A DNA stretch of 64,000 bases. Source: Rhodothalassiaceae bacterium (GTDB lineage: Bacteria > Pseudomonadota > Alphaproteobacteria > Sphingomonadales > Rhodothalassiaceae). The stretch covers positions 1,465,491 to 1,529,490 of the forward strand of contig BPKC01000001.1 of the NCBI GenBank assembly GCA_026004935.1, in the 5' to 3' direction. The translations under genes and the position numbers were made by a program. Under the pieces are notes generated by a model that ran no database searches, was not told the origin of the DNA, and saw nothing but the letters and a program-made list of their open reading frames with translations. Shown here piece by piece: positions 36,823 through 58,724 of this stretch (the stretch's first letter is position 1; each line of letters opens with the position of its first letter).

Positions 36823-38676
36823 TCACGCCTCCTCGGCCGCCTTGCGGCGGTCGGCGCGCTTGCGTTCGTGGGGGTCGAGGATGCGCTTTCTCAGCCGGAT
36901 GGCCGACGGCGTCACCTCCACCAGCTCGTCGTCGGCGATGTAGCTGAGCGCATCCTCGAGGCCGAAGCGCAGCGGCGGCGTGAGCAGGACATTGTCGTCC
37001 TTCATCGCCGCGCGGATGTTGGTCAGCTTCTTCGTCTTGAGCGGGTTGACCTCGAGATCCTGCGGGCGGCTGTGTTCGCCGATGATCATGCCGGGATACA
37101 CCTCCTCGCCGGGGCCGATGAACAGCCGCCCGCGGTCCTCCAGATTCCACAGCGCATAGGCGACGGCGCGCCCGGCCGCATTGCTGATCAGCGCCCCGCG
37201 CGGCCGTGACGCGATCGGGCCCGCATGCGGCGCATATTCGAGGAAGACCCGGTGCATGATGGCGCTGCCGCGGGTCGCCTGCACCAGCTCGCCGTATAGC
37301 CCGATGAGCCCGCGTGCGGGGGCCCGAAAGACCATCCGCAGCCTGCCCGCCTCCTGCTGGCCGACCTCAAGAAGCTCCGCACGCCGGCCGCTCAGCATCT
37401 CCATCACCGTGCCCTGCTGCGCTCCGTCCACCAGGATCACCACCTGCTCGAAGGGCTCGAGCAGCCGGCCCGTGCCGGGCTCGCGGCGCATCAGCACGCG
37501 CGGACGCGAGACCGTGAGCTCGAAGCCTTCTCGCCGCAGCGTCTCGATCAGCACGCCGAGCTGCAGCTCGCCGCGGCCCTCGACGATGAAGGCGCGCTCG
37601 TCCTCCGTCTCGCGCACGCGGATGGCGATGTTGCCTTCGGCCTCGCGCAGAAGGCGTTCGCGCAGCACCCGGCCCGTGAGCTTGTCGCCGTCGCGCCCGG
37701 CAAGCGGCCCGTCGTTGATGGCGAAGGTCATCGCCACCGTCGGCGGATCGATGGGCGGGGCGGGAAGCGCCGCCGAGACGGCGGGGGCGGCGAGCGTGTC
37801 GGCCACCGTGGCGCGCTCGAGCCCCGCGATCGCGACGATCTCGCCGGCCTGCGCCTCCTCCACCGGCACCCGTTCCAGCCCCGCAAAGGAAAAGAGCTTG
37901 GTGACCCGCGCCTCCTCGACGACGCGCGCGTCGTCCCCATCCGCCCGCAGCGCCCGGATCGCATCCCCCACGCGCACGCGGCCCGACTCGATGCGGCCCG
38001 TCAGCACCCGGCCGACGAAGGCATCCCGCTCCAGCAGCCGGGCGAGCATCCGGAAGGGCTCGCGGTCACGGCCCTCGCGCACCGGCGCAGGCTCCGGCAC
38101 ATGGGCGAGGATGGTCTCGAGCAGCGGTGAGAGATCCCGGCCCGGGGCCTCTTCCGGCTCGCGCACCGCCCAGCCCGCGCGGCCTGCCGCATAGAGCACG
38201 GGAAAATCGAGCTGCTCGTCGCTGGCCCCCAACGCGACGAAGAGGTCGAAGACCGCATCCAGCACGGCATCCGGCCGGGCATCGGCCCGGTCCATCTTGT
38301 TGATGACGACGATGGGCTTCAGCCCCAGCGCGAGCGCCTTTTCCGTCACGAACTTCGTCTGCGGCATCGGGCCTTCGGCCGCGTCCACGAGCAGCAGCAC
38401 GCCGTCGACCATCGCCAGTACGCGCTCCACCTCGCCGCCGAAGTCCTTGTGGCCGGGGGTGTCCACGATCTGGATGCGGGTGCCGCGCCAGGTGACCGCC
38501 GTGCATTTGGCGAGAATCGTGATGCCGCGCTCGCGCTCGAGAGCATTGCTGTCGAGCGCCCGTTCGGCGAGCGCGCGATGGGCCGCCACCGCGCCGGTCT
38601 GGCGCAGGAGCTGGTCGATCAGCGTCGTCTTGCCGTGATCGACATGGGCGATGATCGCGATGTTGCGCAGCCGCAT
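36823..38676 (-). CDS. typA: Ribosome-associated GTPase TypA/BipA
   Basis: 617 aa from ATG 38676. G1 AHVDHGKTT, switch region ERERGITI, G3 DTPGHKDF and G4 NKMD are intact; EF-Tu-like domain II ([20 protein letters not shown]), EF-G-like III ([20 protein letters not shown]) and the BipA-specific C-terminal domain ([39 protein letters not shown]) follow. BipA acts on ribosomes under stress and in 50S assembly. The 3' end is convergent with the Rhs array, 33 bp from the last core fragment. Confidence 0.97.
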
Positions 38677-38878
38677 CACTGCCTTCCATCTTCACGCACG
38701 AGCCGTGCCCGGCGCATGTGCCAGCGCCGGTGCGCCGAGGCAAGAGCATGCGAAGCCGCGGCCGGCGACGGGGTCACCGGAGCCGCCGTCCGAGCGTGCC
38801 GCCGCGCGTGCCGCCTGTCCGTTCACGGCGTCGTGAAACATCGTGAACGGGTGCGAACGAAAGTTGAACCGGGGTGTC

Positions 38879-38906
38879 TTGAAGATGCCGCAATTCGTCC
38901 TATTTC
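38879..38906 (+). promoter_or_regulatory. Candidate sigma-70-type promoter of the sRNA
   Basis: TTGAAG (38879-38884), 16 bases, TATTTC (38901-38906). It lies in a 340 bp gene-free stretch and places a start site near 38913. Confidence 0.5.
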
Positions 38907-38912
38907 TATGCG

Positions 38913-39006
38913 TGTGGCAGGCGGTTCGTCCCCTGTCATGCCCTCCGTGGGCGTTTCCTCCCTGAACTTGGGTCGTGGCGGGCGCCGCCCCCACGACCCT
39001 TTTTTT
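38913..39006 (+). ncRNA. Candidate trans-acting sRNA, MmgR (alpha-r8)-like
   Basis: A rightward unit with no reading frame lies between the leftward typA and mgtE genes. It has the promoter at 38879, the motif GGGCGTTTCCTCCCTGAAC (38949-38967), and a perfect intrinsic terminator. An exposed UUCCUCCC sequence is a typical anti-Shine-Dalgarno loop of alphaproteobacterial sRNAs such as the MmgR/suhB Rfam family; assignment to that family is from memory of its motif. About 94 nt is predicted. The 3' end is better supported than the 5' end. Confidence 0.6.
38970..39006 (+). terminator. Intrinsic terminator of the sRNA
   Basis: GGGTCGTGG (38970-38978) pairs perfectly with CCACGACCC (38991-38999), with a further GGGC/GCCC pairing in the loop, followed by seven T. 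Confidence 0.85.
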
Positions 39007-39017
39007 GGGATCCGGGC

Positions 39018-40433
39018 CTAGAGCAGGATCGCGCCGCCGAGCGCCAGAAAGGCGAAGAAGCCGACGACATCGGTCACCGTGGTGACGAAGACGGAGGAGG
39101 CGACGGCCGGGTCGATGCCGAGGCGGTCGAGGGCGAGCGGCACGAAGATGCCGGCCAGTCCCGCCGCCACGAGATTGACGACCATGGCAAGGCCGATGAC
39201 CAGCGCCAGCATCGGGTTCCAGAACCAGACATAGGTGACCGCACCCGTCACCAGCGCGAGCAGGCAGCCGTTGAGGAAGGCGACGAGCAGCTCCCGGCGC
39301 GCGACCTTGAGCGCATTGAGCGCGGTCAGCTCCCGGGTCGCGAGCGCGCGCACCGTCACCGTCATCGTCTGGGTGCCGGCATTGCCGCCCATGGAGGCGA
39401 CGATGGGCATCAGCACGGCGAGCGCCACCATCTGCTGGATCGTCGCCTCGAACAGCCCGATCACGAGGGAGGCGAGGATCGCGGTCCCCAGATTGATCAC
39501 GAGCCAGATGAAGCGCTCGCGCGTGACCTCGCGGATCGGCTGATTGAGGTCGCTCTCGCTGACGCCGGCGAGCGCCAGGATGTCCTCTTCCGCCTCCTCG
39601 CCGATGACCTCGACGACGTCGTCGGCGGTGATGCGGCCGATGAGGCGGCCGTTGTCGTCCACGACGCCCGCCGAGATCAGGTGGTATTTGGTGAACGCCA
39701 GCGCCACCTCCTCCTGGTCGGTGGTGACCGGAAACAGCGGCGGATCGGGCGTCATGATCTCCTTCAAGGGAGTCGGGCGCGGGCTGCGCAGCAGCCTCCA
39801 CAGCGGCACCGTGCCCACGGGCCGGAACTGCGGGTTGACGACGAAGATCTCGTAGAACTCCTCGGGGCCTTCTTCCGCATCCAGCCCGCGCAGAAAGTCG
39901 ATGGCCTGGCCGACGTTCCAGAACTCCGGCATCGCGACGAGGTCGCGGCGCATGAGCCGGCCGGCCGAATCCTCCGGAAAGCTCAGGCCGCTTTCGATCT
40001 CTGCGCGGGTGCGCCGGGCGGTGCGCGCGAGGATCCGACGCTGCTCGTCCTCGTCCAGCTCTTCGAGGAACTGGATCGCGTCGTCCGTGTCCATCTCGGC
40101 GAGCGCGCGGGCGACCACGCGCTCGGGCAGCACGGCGACCAGCTCTTCGAGCGTCGTGCCGTCGAGCTCGGCCAGGATCTCCGGGGCGATCCGCCCGCCC
40201 ATCAGCCGCGCGAGATGCCGGCGCTCGTCCCCGTCGAGCAGCTCGATGAGTTCAGCCGCATCCGCCGGATGAAGCGCGGCGAAGAGGGCCTCGATGGCGG
40301 CCCGGTCATCGGCCTCCAGCGCCTCGCGCAGGCGCGCGAGCTGCTCGCGGCGCAGATCCTCCTCGCCGGAATCGCGCGCCGGCGGGGCGGGGGGCCGGTC
40401 GGTGCTCGCCACCTCTTCGTTCATGCGTTCCAT
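39018..40433 (-). CDS. mgtE: Magnesium transporter MgtE
   Basis: 471 aa. The N domain (HPADAAELIELLDGDERRHL), two CBS domains (about residues 150-275: EFYEIFVVNPQFRPVGTVPL, LISAGVVDDNGRLIGRITAD) and five transmembrane helices from about residue 310 with the pore signature MPIVASMGGNAGTQT. MgtE is an inner-membrane Mg2+ channel closed by Mg2+ binding to the N and CBS domains. Start ATG 40433 or the near ATG 40424. Preceded by tRNA-Leu on the same strand but separated from it by a terminator. Confidence 0.96.
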   Translation of the reverse strand: MERMNEEVASTDRPPAPPARDSGEEDLRREQLARLREALEADDRAAIEALFAALHPADAAELIELLDGDERRHLARLMGGRIAPEILAELDGTTLEELVAVLPERVVARALAEMDTDDAIQFLEELDEDEQRRILARTARRTRAEIESGLSFPEDSAGRLMRRDLVAMPEFWNVGQAIDFLRGLDAEEGPEEFYEIFVVNPQFRPVGTVPLWRLLRSPRPTPLKEIMTPDPPLFPVTTDQEEVALAFTKYHLISAGVVDDNGRLIGRITADDVVEVIGEEAEEDILALAGVSESDLNQPIREVTRERFIWLVINLGTAILASLVIGLFEATIQQMVALAVLMPIVASMGGNAGTQTMTVTVRALATRELTALNALKVARRELLVAFLNGCLLALVTGAVTYVWFWNPMLALVIGLAMVVNLVAAGLAGIFVPLALDRLGIDPAVASSVFVTTVTDVVGFFAFLALGGAILL

Positions 40434-40539: not shown

Positions 40540-40626
40540 TGGTGCGGACGAGAAGATTCGAACTTCCACGGGCTTTCGCCCACAGCGACCTCAACGCTGC
40601 GCGTCTACCAGTTCCGCCACGTCCGC
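40540..40626 (-). tRNA. tRNA-Leu (anticodon GAG)
   Basis: 87 nt including an encoded CCA. Acceptor GCGGACG pairs with CGTCCGC; the anticodon stem CAGCG/CGCTG encloses loop TTGAGGT, giving GAG; a long variable arm (GGGCGAAAGCCC) marks it as class II; the T-arm GAAG-TTCGAAT-CTTC is standard. Reads leftward toward mgtE and has its own terminator. Confidence 0.95.
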
Positions 40627-44629: not shown

Positions 44630-44815
44630 GGCGCCTCGACTGTGGCAGATATGACACAGTTTCCGGAAATTTCGCACCGTCGCTGCTGCCATTTTCACGA
44701 ATTTCGTTGAGGCCCGTCCCGCCATCCTACTAAACTGACGGCAGAACCGCGATGACGGTCACGGTTCATGCAACCCATCACGACCTTGCAGGAGAGCAGG
44801 ACGGGAGGATCACAG

Positions 44816-47272
44816 ATGCGTGCATTCGCGATGCGGAAGAGGTTCGCAGGTCTGGCGGCGGGCGGCAGCGTGCTGGCGTTCGCCATCGTCCTCGGCGTGC
44901 CGGCGGCCATGGCCCAGCAGCAGGGCGCCCAGTCCGAACAGGCGGAGGTCGGGACCCTCGAGGAGATCGTGGTGACCGCCCGCAAGCGCTCCGAGACGCT
45001 GCAGAACGTGCCGTTCTCGATCAATGCGCTGACCGAATCGATGATGCGCGACCGCGGCGCCCAGAGTCTCGAGGACATCGCGGCGAACGTCGCGGGTTTC
45101 ACGATCCAGAATCTGGGCCCGGGCCAGAGCCAGGTGGCGATGCGCGGGGTGTCCGCCGGCCAGATCGTACGCGACCAGCCGGGCGTGAAGGAGCAGGTCG
45201 GCATCTATCTCGACGAGTCGCCGATCTCGCTGTCGCTGTTCACGCCCGACCTCGACTTCTTCGACACCAACCGCGTCGAGGTGCTGCGCGGGCCGCAGGG
45301 CACGCTCTTCGGCTCCGGCTCGCTGTCGGGCACCGTGCGCTACATCACGAACAAGCCGAATTTCGACGACTATGAGGTGATTGCCGAGGCGACCGGCAAC
45401 GTCATCGACCACGGCGACGTCGGCGGCGAGATCAAGGCGGCTTTCAACGTGCCCGTGAACGACGTGATCGCCATCCGCGCCGTGGGCTATGCGACGCGCT
45501 TTGGCGGCTTCATCAACGCCGTGCAGCCCGGCGGCGACACCTTCGCGCGGCCCAATGTCAACAAGGACGTGAACGACGGCGTGCGCTACGGCGGGCGGCT
45601 GGCGGCCGAGATCCGGGTCAACGATCGGATCACGCTGCGCCCACGCGTCGTCTACCAGAAGGTCGAGATCGACGGCTTCAACCGTGTCGATCTCTACAAC
45701 ATCCTCGCCAATCCGTTCACGACGACGCGCCCGCGGGTGACGCTGGGCCGGCTCGATCAGTTCACCCAGCTGGAAGAGACCTTCCGCGACGAGTTCCTGC
45801 TGGCGGATGCGGAGGTCACCTGGGAGGGTGACGTCTTCGGCTTCAAGTCCATCAGCTCGTTCACGAACCGCGAAATCCTGCAGGTGCGCGACGCGACGCA
45901 GCTGACGGGCTCGATCACCTTCCAGGTCTTCGGTGCGCCGGAGCCGATCGTGACGCTGGATGCGCCGCTCTTCGACCGCACGAATGTCGACATGTTCACC
46001 GAAGAGGCGCGCTTCTACTCGACGGACGAGGCGGCGCGGCTGCAGTGGGTGCTCGGCGTCTTCTACAGCAACATCAACCGCCGCTACGGCCAGACGCTGT
46101 TCGTGGACGGCTTCGAGGACCTGATGGGGGATCTCGACGTGCTCGACATCGACACGCGCGGGGTTCTGGCGCCGAAGGACGTGCTGTTCTTCTCCGACAT
46201 CCCCTACGACTTCGAGCAGATCGCGATCTTCGGCGAGGCCACCTACCGCATCACCGACAACTTCGACGTCACGGCCGGCGGCCGCTGGTACAATTTCGAC
46301 GAGCGCCGCGTGCTCAACTTCGACGGCATCTTCGCCGACCAGACCATCGGTCAGCCCGGCAAGACCTCGACTGACGGCTTCTCGCCGCGCGTCATCGTCA
46401 GCTACAAGCCGGATGACGACGTGCAGCTGAACGCCCAGGTGTCCAAGGGCTTCCGGCTGGGCGGCATCAACGACCCGCTCAACGTTCCGCTGTGTTCGCC
46501 GCAGGACCTGCAGACCTTCGGCAACCGGCCGAGCTTCAAGGACGAGGAGCTGTGGAACTACGAGATCGGCGCCAAGACGGAGCTGTTCGCCGGCCGGGTG
46601 ATCTTCAACATCGCCGCCTTCTACGAGGACATCAAGAACCTCCAGGCGACGGTGGATGCCGGCACCTGCTCGTCGCGCATCATCTTCAACGTGCCGGATG
46701 CGCGCTCGATCGGCACCGAGATCGAGCTCAACATCCGCCCCGACGAGCACTGGGCGCTGGCGGTGAGCGCCTCCTACACCGATCCGGAGCTGCGCTCGAC
46801 CATCACCTCGGTCGATGCGGACGGCAATGTCTCGGTGGTGGCCGGCCTGCAGAAGGGCAACCGCCTGCCGACGGTGCCGCGCTTCCAGATGGCGGCGTCC
46901 CTGAGCTACACGGCCCCCGTCTCGAACGACTTCGACGGCTTCGTGATCGCGACCGTCCAGCACGTCGGCTCGCGCTTCACCCAGACGGGTGACCAGGCGC
47001 CGGGCTTCGGTGTCGTCGATCTGACGCGCATTCCCTTCGGCGATCCGGACCGGGCGACCTTCGTCTTCGATCCGAAGCTCGACGCCTACCAGATCGGCAA
47101 TCTGCGCATCGGCGTGCGCAACGACCGCTGGGAGCTGTCGTTCTGGATCAACAACATCTGGGACGAGCGGGCGCAGCTGGCGCTGGACCGCGAGCGCGGC
47201 ACGCTGGCGCGCGTGGGCTTCCTGACCAATCAGCCGCGCACCTTCGGCTTTACGGTCCGCGCCCAGTACTGA
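44816..47272 (+). CDS. TonB-dependent outer-membrane receptor
   Basis: 818 aa; GGGAGGAT fixes ATG 44816 within a longer frame. Signal peptide (GGSVLAFAIVLGVPAAMAQQ), TonB-box-containing LEEIVVTARKRSE at about residue 44, a plug domain (VPFSINALTESMMRDRGAQS, RVEVLRGPQGTLFGSGSLSG) and a beta-barrel ending in a C-terminal aromatic strand (RTFGFTVRAQY). It is of the sphingomonad/Caulobacter-like type with a long barrel. The ligand cannot be read from sequence; the neighbour encodes a Tat-exported amine-oxidising flavoenzyme, which may act on the imported compound. A possible promoter TTGAGG/TACTAA lies at 44707-44733. Confidence 0.94.
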   Translation: MRAFAMRKRFAGLAAGGSVLAFAIVLGVPAAMAQQQGAQSEQAEVGTLEEIVVTARKRSETLQNVPFSINALTESMMRDRGAQSLEDIAANVAGFTIQNLGPGQSQVAMRGVSAGQIVRDQPGVKEQVGIYLDESPISLSLFTPDLDFFDTNRVEVLRGPQGTLFGSGSLSGTVRYITNKPNFDDYEVIAEATGNVIDHGDVGGEIKAAFNVPVNDVIAIRAVGYATRFGGFINAVQPGGDTFARPNVNKDVNDGVRYGGRLAAEIRVNDRITLRPRVVYQKVEIDGFNRVDLYNILANPFTTTRPRVTLGRLDQFTQLEETFRDEFLLADAEVTWEGDVFGFKSISSFTNREILQVRDATQLTGSITFQVFGAPEPIVTLDAPLFDRTNVDMFTEEARFYSTDEAARLQWVLGVFYSNINRRYGQTLFVDGFEDLMGDLDVLDIDTRGVLAPKDVLFFSDIPYDFEQIAIFGEATYRITDNFDVTAGGRWYNFDERRVLNFDGIFADQTIGQPGKTSTDGFSPRVIVSYKPDDDVQLNAQVSKGFRLGGINDPLNVPLCSPQDLQTFGNRPSFKDEELWNYEIGAKTELFAGRVIFNIAAFYEDIKNLQATVDAGTCSSRIIFNVPDARSIGTEIELNIRPDEHWALAVSASYTDPELRSTITSVDADGNVSVVAGLQKGNRLPTVPRFQMAASLSYTAPVSNDFDGFVIATVQHVGSRFTQTGDQAPGFGVVDLTRIPFGDPDRATFVFDPKLDAYQIGNLRIGVRNDRWELSFWINNIWDERAQLALDRERGTLARVGFLTNQPRTFGFTVRAQY

Positions 47273-57984: not shown

Positions 57985-58179
57985 ATGGCCGCCAAGGATC
58001 CCGCACGCATGGAGCGCCTCAAGGCGGCGCTGAGAGCCAATCTGCGCCGACGCAAGGCGCAGATGCGCGCCCGCGCCGGCACGCCCGATGCCGCCCACGG
58101 TGCGGCACCCGCCGGGTCGCGGCCCGGGCGGCCGGCCGATGAGGCACAGGACAGGGAGGAAGCCGACCGATGCCCGTGA
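57985..58179 (+). CDS. Small conserved basic hypothetical protein
   Basis: 64 aa; GGAGGACC fixes ATG 57985. The N-terminal half ([32 protein letters not shown]) resembles a short basic helical protein found in many Alphaproteobacteria; the rest is low complexity. It overlaps the dcd start by 10 bp, suggesting coupled translation. Function unknown. Confidence 0.65.
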
Positions 58180-58724
58180 TGTCCGACCGCTGGATCCGCC
58201 GCATGGCGAAGGAATGCGGCATGATCGAGCCCTTCGAGGACCGCCAGCGGCGCGAGGGCATGATCTCCTACGGGCTGTCCTCCTACGGCTACGACGCCCG
58301 GGTTGCCGACGAGTTCAAGATCTTCACCAATGTCAACAACGCGCTGGTGGACCCGAAGAACTTCGCCCAGGAGAGCTTCGTGGACAAGAAGGCGGAGGTG
58401 TGCATCATCCCGCCCAATTCCTTCGCGCTGGCCCGCACGGTGGAATACTTCCGCATCCCGCGCGACGTGATCGTCATCTGCCTCGGCAAGAGCACCTATG
58501 CGCGCTGCGGGATCATCGTGAACGTGACGCCGCTCGAGCCCGGCTGGGAGGGGCATGTGACGATCGAGATCTCGAACACGACGCCGCTGCCCTGCAAGAT
58601 CTACGCGAACGAGGGGATCGCCCAGTTCCTGTTCCTGCAGGGCAACGAGCCCTGCGAGGTCTCCTACGCGGATCGGGGCGGCAAGTATCAGGGCCAGCGC
58701 GGGGTCACCCTGCCGCGGCTCTAG
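58170..58724 (+). CDS. dcd: dCTP deaminase
   Basis: 184 aa. Full match to the trimeric dCTP deaminase pattern: [80 protein letters not shown] and the C-terminal [14 protein letters not shown]. It makes dUTP for thymidylate synthesis. The ATG at 58170 lies within the previous gene; ATG 58179 (MSDRW) is also possible. Confidence 0.96.

Follow-up and report, generated by a model that had tools for sequence, protein, structure and literature searches.

What is encoded in the short gap between two leftward genes, typA and mgtE, in a member of the Rhodothalassiaceae, and what might its product control? Read from the sequence, the stretch 38879-39006 on the + strand of the window (the whole 64 kb of DNA that was analysed) is a complete small RNA (sRNA) gene lying between the two, whose parts and neighbours, the latter identified by NCBIfam equivalog models, are as follows:

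36823-38679, - strand: typA/bipA, flanking gene (TIGR01394, 852.7 bits, cut-off 757.3)
38879-38909, + strand: probable promoter, with TTGAAG at 38879-38884, 16 nt, and TATTTC(TAT) at 38901
38901-38909, + strand: TATTTCTAT, read directly
38912-39006, + strand: sRNA gene, about 95 nt if it starts near 38912, as predicted; the RF00519 match covers 38933-39014
38914-38939, + strand: 5' stem-loop SL1, from a local fold
38940-38952, + strand: stem-loop SL2, GCCC-UCCGU-GGGC (helix 1 of the covariation analysis)
38954-38963, + strand: anti-Shine-Dalgarno 10-mer UUUCCUCCCU, the pairing core, the same as the alpha-r8 10-mer in PMC12559287
38954-38969, + strand: UUUCCUCCCUGAACUU, the core and the stretch downstream of it, read directly
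38970-39006, + strand: Rho-independent terminator, with a 9-bp GC-rich stem (38970-38978 / 38991-38999) and U7 at 39000-39006
39018-40433, - strand: mgtE, flanking gene, tail-to-tail with the sRNA (TIGR00400, 292.3 bits, cut-off 232.75)

A tRNA gene (RF00005, 52 bits) lies just upstream of mgtE, at 40543-40626 on the - strand. The first-pass annotation had noticed a rightward promoter, an anti-Shine-Dalgarno motif and a strong terminator between two leftward genes, all of which are present in the sequence, the promoter as a probable one, and had proposed a covariance search as a check of an MmgR-like identity. That search (cmscan, Rfam 15) returned RF00519 (suhB, 'Makes More Granules Regulator RNA (mmgR)', alpha-r8) with 50 bits, above the gathering score of 41, at E = 2.7e-7 for the whole window and with model positions 1-77 of 77 aligned. 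The family is defined in PMC12559287 by a single-stranded 10-mer downstream of a weak hairpin, and here UUUCCUCCCU follows SL2; the Rho-independent terminator typical of alpha-r8 is likewise present, and its stem covaries. SorY (RF02651), the next-best Rfam match in 38700-39100 and also endowed with CCUCCC and a terminator in its consensus, was rejected, as it scored 19.3 bits where the gathering score is 111. By these marks the window sRNA is a further copy of an sRNA already known from alphaproteobacteria, and an hfq gene was found in the source genome. Family membership by itself is routine annotation.

It might be argued that there is no sRNA here at all, and that the element merely serves mgtE, as its terminator or part of its 3'-UTR, or belongs to the leader of typA: both neighbours point leftward, and about 12 nt separate the U tract from the stop codon of mgtE. 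We consider this exceedingly improbable, since the + strand, opposite to both genes, is the one that carries the U tract, the covariance match and the conserved promoter. Concerning the promoter, a mechanical consensus scan of 38300-39700 listed no sigma-70-like promoter, so the call rests on a -35-like TTGAA located 75-76 nt ahead of the core in five of six family-level copies (75 nt in the window copy), namely the best copies from six genomes belonging to one family; in the remaining copy (L007) the element is TTGAC, at 69 nt. The same scan left the sRNA terminator unlisted, its loop limit being 8 nt and the terminator loop 12 nt. Stable folding is predicted for 38920-39009, at -45 kcal/mol versus an average of -31.8 in shuffles (sd 3.0, z = -4.35). 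In this fold the CCC of the core is weakly paired with GGG at 39007-39009, past the U tract, a pairing that would be lost if transcription stops at 39006.

The architecture is widely conserved. RF00519 was matched (E <= 0.001) in 57 of the 60 genomes searched, the source genome included, and exceeded the cut-off in 53. For the alignment, 16 copies were picked from 34 rows (33 of them distinct); copies having a stem-loop just upstream were preferred, a choice that is not neutral for SL1. The core 10-mer is unchanged in all 16. Across SL2 and the terminator, 99.1% of cells are paired and 8 of 14 pairs are changed on both sides, giving a covariation score of 0.379 compared with 0.196 in shuffles (reached by 0/500) and at most 0.134 in slid versions; a less clear-cut measure, the number of further pair types, was reached by 12/500 shuffles. 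Most of this variation falls in the terminator stem, helix 2 (7 of 9 pairs changed on both sides; 98.6% of cells paired), whereas SL2 is paired in 100% of cells with three of its five pairs invariant and one G-C replaced by A-U, on both sides, in one sequence. A stem-loop just upstream of SL2 is predicted in 13 of the 16 copies, with differing letters and folds judged by eye, and is weak or displaced in L031, L019 and L028. Between families the 5' stem-loop differs widely, with C-rich loops in some and UUGGUGUA-like stretches in others (compare, for instance, L003, L005 and L008 with L004, L009 and L016). The 5' part of alpha-r8 RNAs may therefore hold a second, lineage-specific pairing site.

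The window copy is not alone in its genome. A second alpha-r8 copy (L002) at C1:2120357-2120438 on the - strand, scoring 30.4 bits and hence below the cut-off of 41, sits between glyQ and a sirtuin gene, and a sirtuin gene also stands beside alpha-r8 copies in G001, which belongs to the same genus, and in G002. Furthermore, a third alpha-r8-like core at C1:2330782 on the - strand (L134, about 570-605) agrees with the window copy in 22 of 23 letters, compared by eye, and is accompanied by an SL2-like hairpin in a gap between genes named by eye as flagellin-like and LolC/E-like. No U-tract terminator is visible there and RF00519 gave no match at E up to 10; this core appears relic-like.

With regards to neighbourhood, at least 37 of the 60 genomes have RF00519 and FGase matches no more than 2 kb apart. 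This figure is a lower bound, based on all 91 RF00519 rows and on 46 FGase rows picked by eye for a shared contig, and it is in line with PMC12559287, where such linkage is described. The window sRNA is without this linkage, its own FGase gene lying 297 kb off at C1:1206734, and the linkage is usual for the main copy but not defining, as three of the four Caulobacter siblings lack it (PMC12559287). No RF00519 match was found in 5 kb around the own FGase locus; a TTCCTCCC occurring there was rejected as an alpha-r8 copy on this ground. As for the position beside mgtE, TypA was absent from 17 MgtE loci of the named genomes (tblastn; flanks of up to 4 kb, clipped at contig ends), and among the 60 genomes, compared by eye, the source genome is the only one in which an MgtE match has an alpha-r8 match no more than 2 kb away. 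TTCCTCCC also occurs near MgtE, at a distance of a few kb at most, on two contigs of the named genomes (L034 position 590 and L043 position 5722). In five genomes of another family of the order (f6; L083-L087) an alpha-r8 copy is located about 3 kb upstream of mgtE and not at its tail.

Another reading is that the window copy, duplicated or moved from the FGase locus, is silent or decaying, and that the functional sRNA is the sirtuin-side sibling. Apart from the existence of this sibling, the sole match in G001 is the sirtuin-side copy, the third core looks decayed, and the typA-mgtE position was seen nowhere else among the genomes and loci examined. Yet the window copy outscores the sibling by 50 to 30.4 bits and keeps the promoter position, both hairpins and the terminator, while in G001, an 89% complete genome that gave no match to MgtE, absence carries little weight. 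We regard a silent window copy as quite improbable. A clear copy, a sibling below the cut-off and a relic-like core in one genome, together with the position of the window copy away from FGase, provide a modest example of an sRNA that was duplicated and moved while its promoter spacing was kept.

What, then, would such an RNA do? Two relatives suggest different answers. In Sinorhizobium meliloti, MmgR limits polyhydroxybutyrate (PHB) granules (PMC7143759, PMC8401924) and affects the phasins PhaP1/PhaP2, in a direction that the two papers word differently; PMC12559287 states that a transcript pairing directly with MmgR has yet to be identified. NtrC and AniA control the MmgR promoter. In Caulobacter crescentus, SisA uses the identical 10-mer to pair with the start region of the mRNA for a TonB-dependent receptor (TBDR), which it represses, and matching mutations restored repression of a TBDR reporter; TBDRs are strongly represented among its targets, which include other genes too. 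There, carbon starvation induces a sponge, CrfA, by which the abundant SisA is removed and repression relieved. This target class was shown in one species, in 2025 (all PMC12559287).

We favour, at a probability of roughly three in four, the reading that the window gene encodes a trans-acting alpha-r8 sRNA with its own promoter, whose core would pair with Hfq's aid and block translation, above all that of TBDR genes. Rightward transcription would begin at the promoter around 38879-38909 and end at the terminator at 39006, and the two hairpins and the terminator would leave UUUCCUCCCUGAACUU exposed. With Hfq, presumably bound, the core would then pair with ribosome-binding sites of the type (UC)AGGGAGGA(AA), which would repress translation of TBDR genes above all and of some other transport and metabolic genes. 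The sRNA itself may be under carbon-linked control, and the growth- or carbon-linked role assumed by the first-pass annotation is in keeping with the family, as judged by S. meliloti MmgR and Caulobacter SisA.

If TBDRs are targets, their start sites should complement the core. Starting from 27 PF07715 plug matches, two of which were merged as one gene, we obtained 26 loci and kept 24, dropping L162 (no usable start) and L163, which has a weak plug match, a chosen start that pairs poorly (-4.9) and an upstream GGGAGGA out of frame with the plug match; dropping L163 favours the targeting reading, the TBDR mean core energy being -16.7 with it and -17.2 without it. The background comprised 329 genes from a 464 kb sample (333 called, 74% coverage, four TBDRs removed), based on a second gene calling (333 genes) that replaced a first one (238 genes). 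Gene starts were script-called by rules that are similar but not identical for TBDRs and background, which is a weakness of the comparison.

The Shine-Dalgarno zone contains AGGGAG in 14/24 TBDRs versus 33/329 background genes, and the extended CAGGGAG in 6/24 versus 7/329, whereas the canonical AAGGAG occurs in 3/24 versus 24/329. GGAG is found in all 24 TBDRs and in 164/329 background genes, and 16S pairing is stronger in TBDRs (p 6e-5); TBDRs therefore have stronger Shine-Dalgarno sequences in general, and part of the raw complementarity signal is Shine-Dalgarno strength. When the comparison is confined to genes that pair strongly with 16S, core duplexes average -17.9 for 21 TBDRs versus -14.9 for 156 genes (p 1.6e-4). 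When CCUCC was held fixed and the flanks of the core were permuted, the separation of the 24 TBDRs from the 156 strong-Shine-Dalgarno genes achieved by the real core was matched by 1/400 permuted cores, and the 16S anti-Shine-Dalgarno itself gave no difference between the two sets (0.03). Mean energy alone is a weaker test, with 7/300 permuted cores doing as well on the own TBDRs, 83/300 on the strong-Shine-Dalgarno background and 103/300 on all background. In this test and in that on relatives, two GTG starts were entered as ATG. By computed pairing, the TBDR start sites of the source genome are complementary to the sRNA core beyond Shine-Dalgarno strength.

A comparable pattern emerged in relatives, for which 30 TBDR loci with the best plug scores were taken from four genomes, three belonging to the same family and the fourth to the same order; 28 were kept, L194 (-8.0) and L188 (-3.8) being dropped as doubtful starts, which again favours the targeting reading. 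AGGGAG occurred in 5/28 TBDRs versus 8/317 background genes, GGGAG in 8/28 versus 19/317 and AGGAG in 3/28 versus 30/317, with the TBDR filter having removed no gene from this background, so that TBDRs may remain in it. The extended CAGGGAG was found in 0/30 of the relatives' TBDRs. Core energy corrected for 16S pairing was lower in TBDRs (p 1.3e-6, 28 vs 317), a difference reached by 0/200 permuted cores; 16S pairing alone also differs (p 0.003). TBDR targeting may leave a signature in receptor start sites, both in the source genome and in four others, and such a signature in five genomes renders the generality of the SisA regulon testable from sequence.

Two candidate targets lie in the window itself:

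44803-47272, + strand: TBDR gene starting at 44816, with GGGAGGA (44803-44809) as Shine-Dalgarno
58153-58724, + strand: dCTP deaminase gene starting at 58170, with ACAGGGAGGAAG upstream (TIGR02274)

The core duplex of the TBDR gene (44816-47272), at -14.8 kcal/mol, is among the weaker candidates. That of the dCTP deaminase gene (-24.7) is the best of the 329 sampled background genes, and the next four duplexes belong to one other gene (-23.4) and to three genes with a Pfam match, which encode a protein of the metallo-beta-lactamase fold (-23.3), a symporter for sodium:dicarboxylate (-23.2) and a protein of the MAPEG type (-22.8). Because the window copy and its sibling share the core, targets are not assignable to the window copy.

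Could the RNA act mainly on phasins instead, setting granule number under nitrogen or carbon imbalance as in S. meliloti? It shares family and 10-mer with MmgR, which in that species limits PHB and affects PhaP1/PhaP2, and the genome encodes a PHA synthase, phaC (PF07167, E 1.3e-75). The most upstream candidate phaC start, on the other hand, forms a core duplex of -14.8 kcal/mol and pairs no better than the strong-Shine-Dalgarno background (mean -14.9), and for MmgR itself a direct pairing partner is missing in the account of PMC12559287. PHB regulation is thus an unlikely main function here. The MmgR-like label of the first-pass annotation stands as to RF00519 membership, but its emphasis had to be corrected, as the evidence points rather to TBDR repression of the SisA kind than to the phasin and PHB control that the MmgR name suggests.

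Following the Caulobacter example, we also looked for a CrfA-like sponge. The genome has 36 AGGGAGGAA sites, and 13 loci, namely the sites without evident gene start plus six later ones, were inspected; none had a T run within 150 nt, a crude test by which no terminated GA-rich RNA was recognised. One of the inspected loci (L134) is the reverse complement of the third alpha-r8 core, and a sponge RNA may be encoded on its + strand. Read on this strand, the third core is a 16-nt perfect antisense to the core of the window copy. Repeated GCCGGCGGGTGACGA-type elements adjoin AGGGAGGAA at L067 and L076 (C1:1093203, 1870589).

In terms of sequence, family membership, architecture, conservation, copies, the presence of hfq and a targeting signature on TBDR start sites are established. 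The probable effect of the sRNA is to shut down translation of receptors for nutrient uptake by masking the ribosome-binding sites of their genes. More tentatively, and with somewhat less than even odds, we propose that TBDR repression via (UC)AGGGAGG-type sites is an old job of alpha-r8 beyond Caulobacter, for whose control GGGAG Shine-Dalgarno sequences would have been kept, and that this job is shared here by the relocated typA-mgtE copy and the sirtuin-side sibling, which possibly respond to different signals.

Among known systems, MmgR of S. meliloti resembles the window sRNA in its RF00519/alpha-r8 membership and anti-Shine-Dalgarno core (PMC7143759, PMC8401924), but it is 77 nt long versus the roughly 95 nt predicted here, and its phasin and PHB role finds no support from the little tested. 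SisA (with SisB-D) of Caulobacter differs in that it adjoins the FGase gene, whereas the window copy lies between typA and mgtE, and in that Caulobacter possesses the sponge CrfA, of which no equivalent was recognised in the source genome. In other respects SisA is similar: it shares the family, the identical UUUCCUCCCU after a weak hairpin, the terminator and the occurrence of more than one sibling per genome, and its target class (PMC12559287), TBDR start sites, is the candidate class to which complementarity with the core points here.
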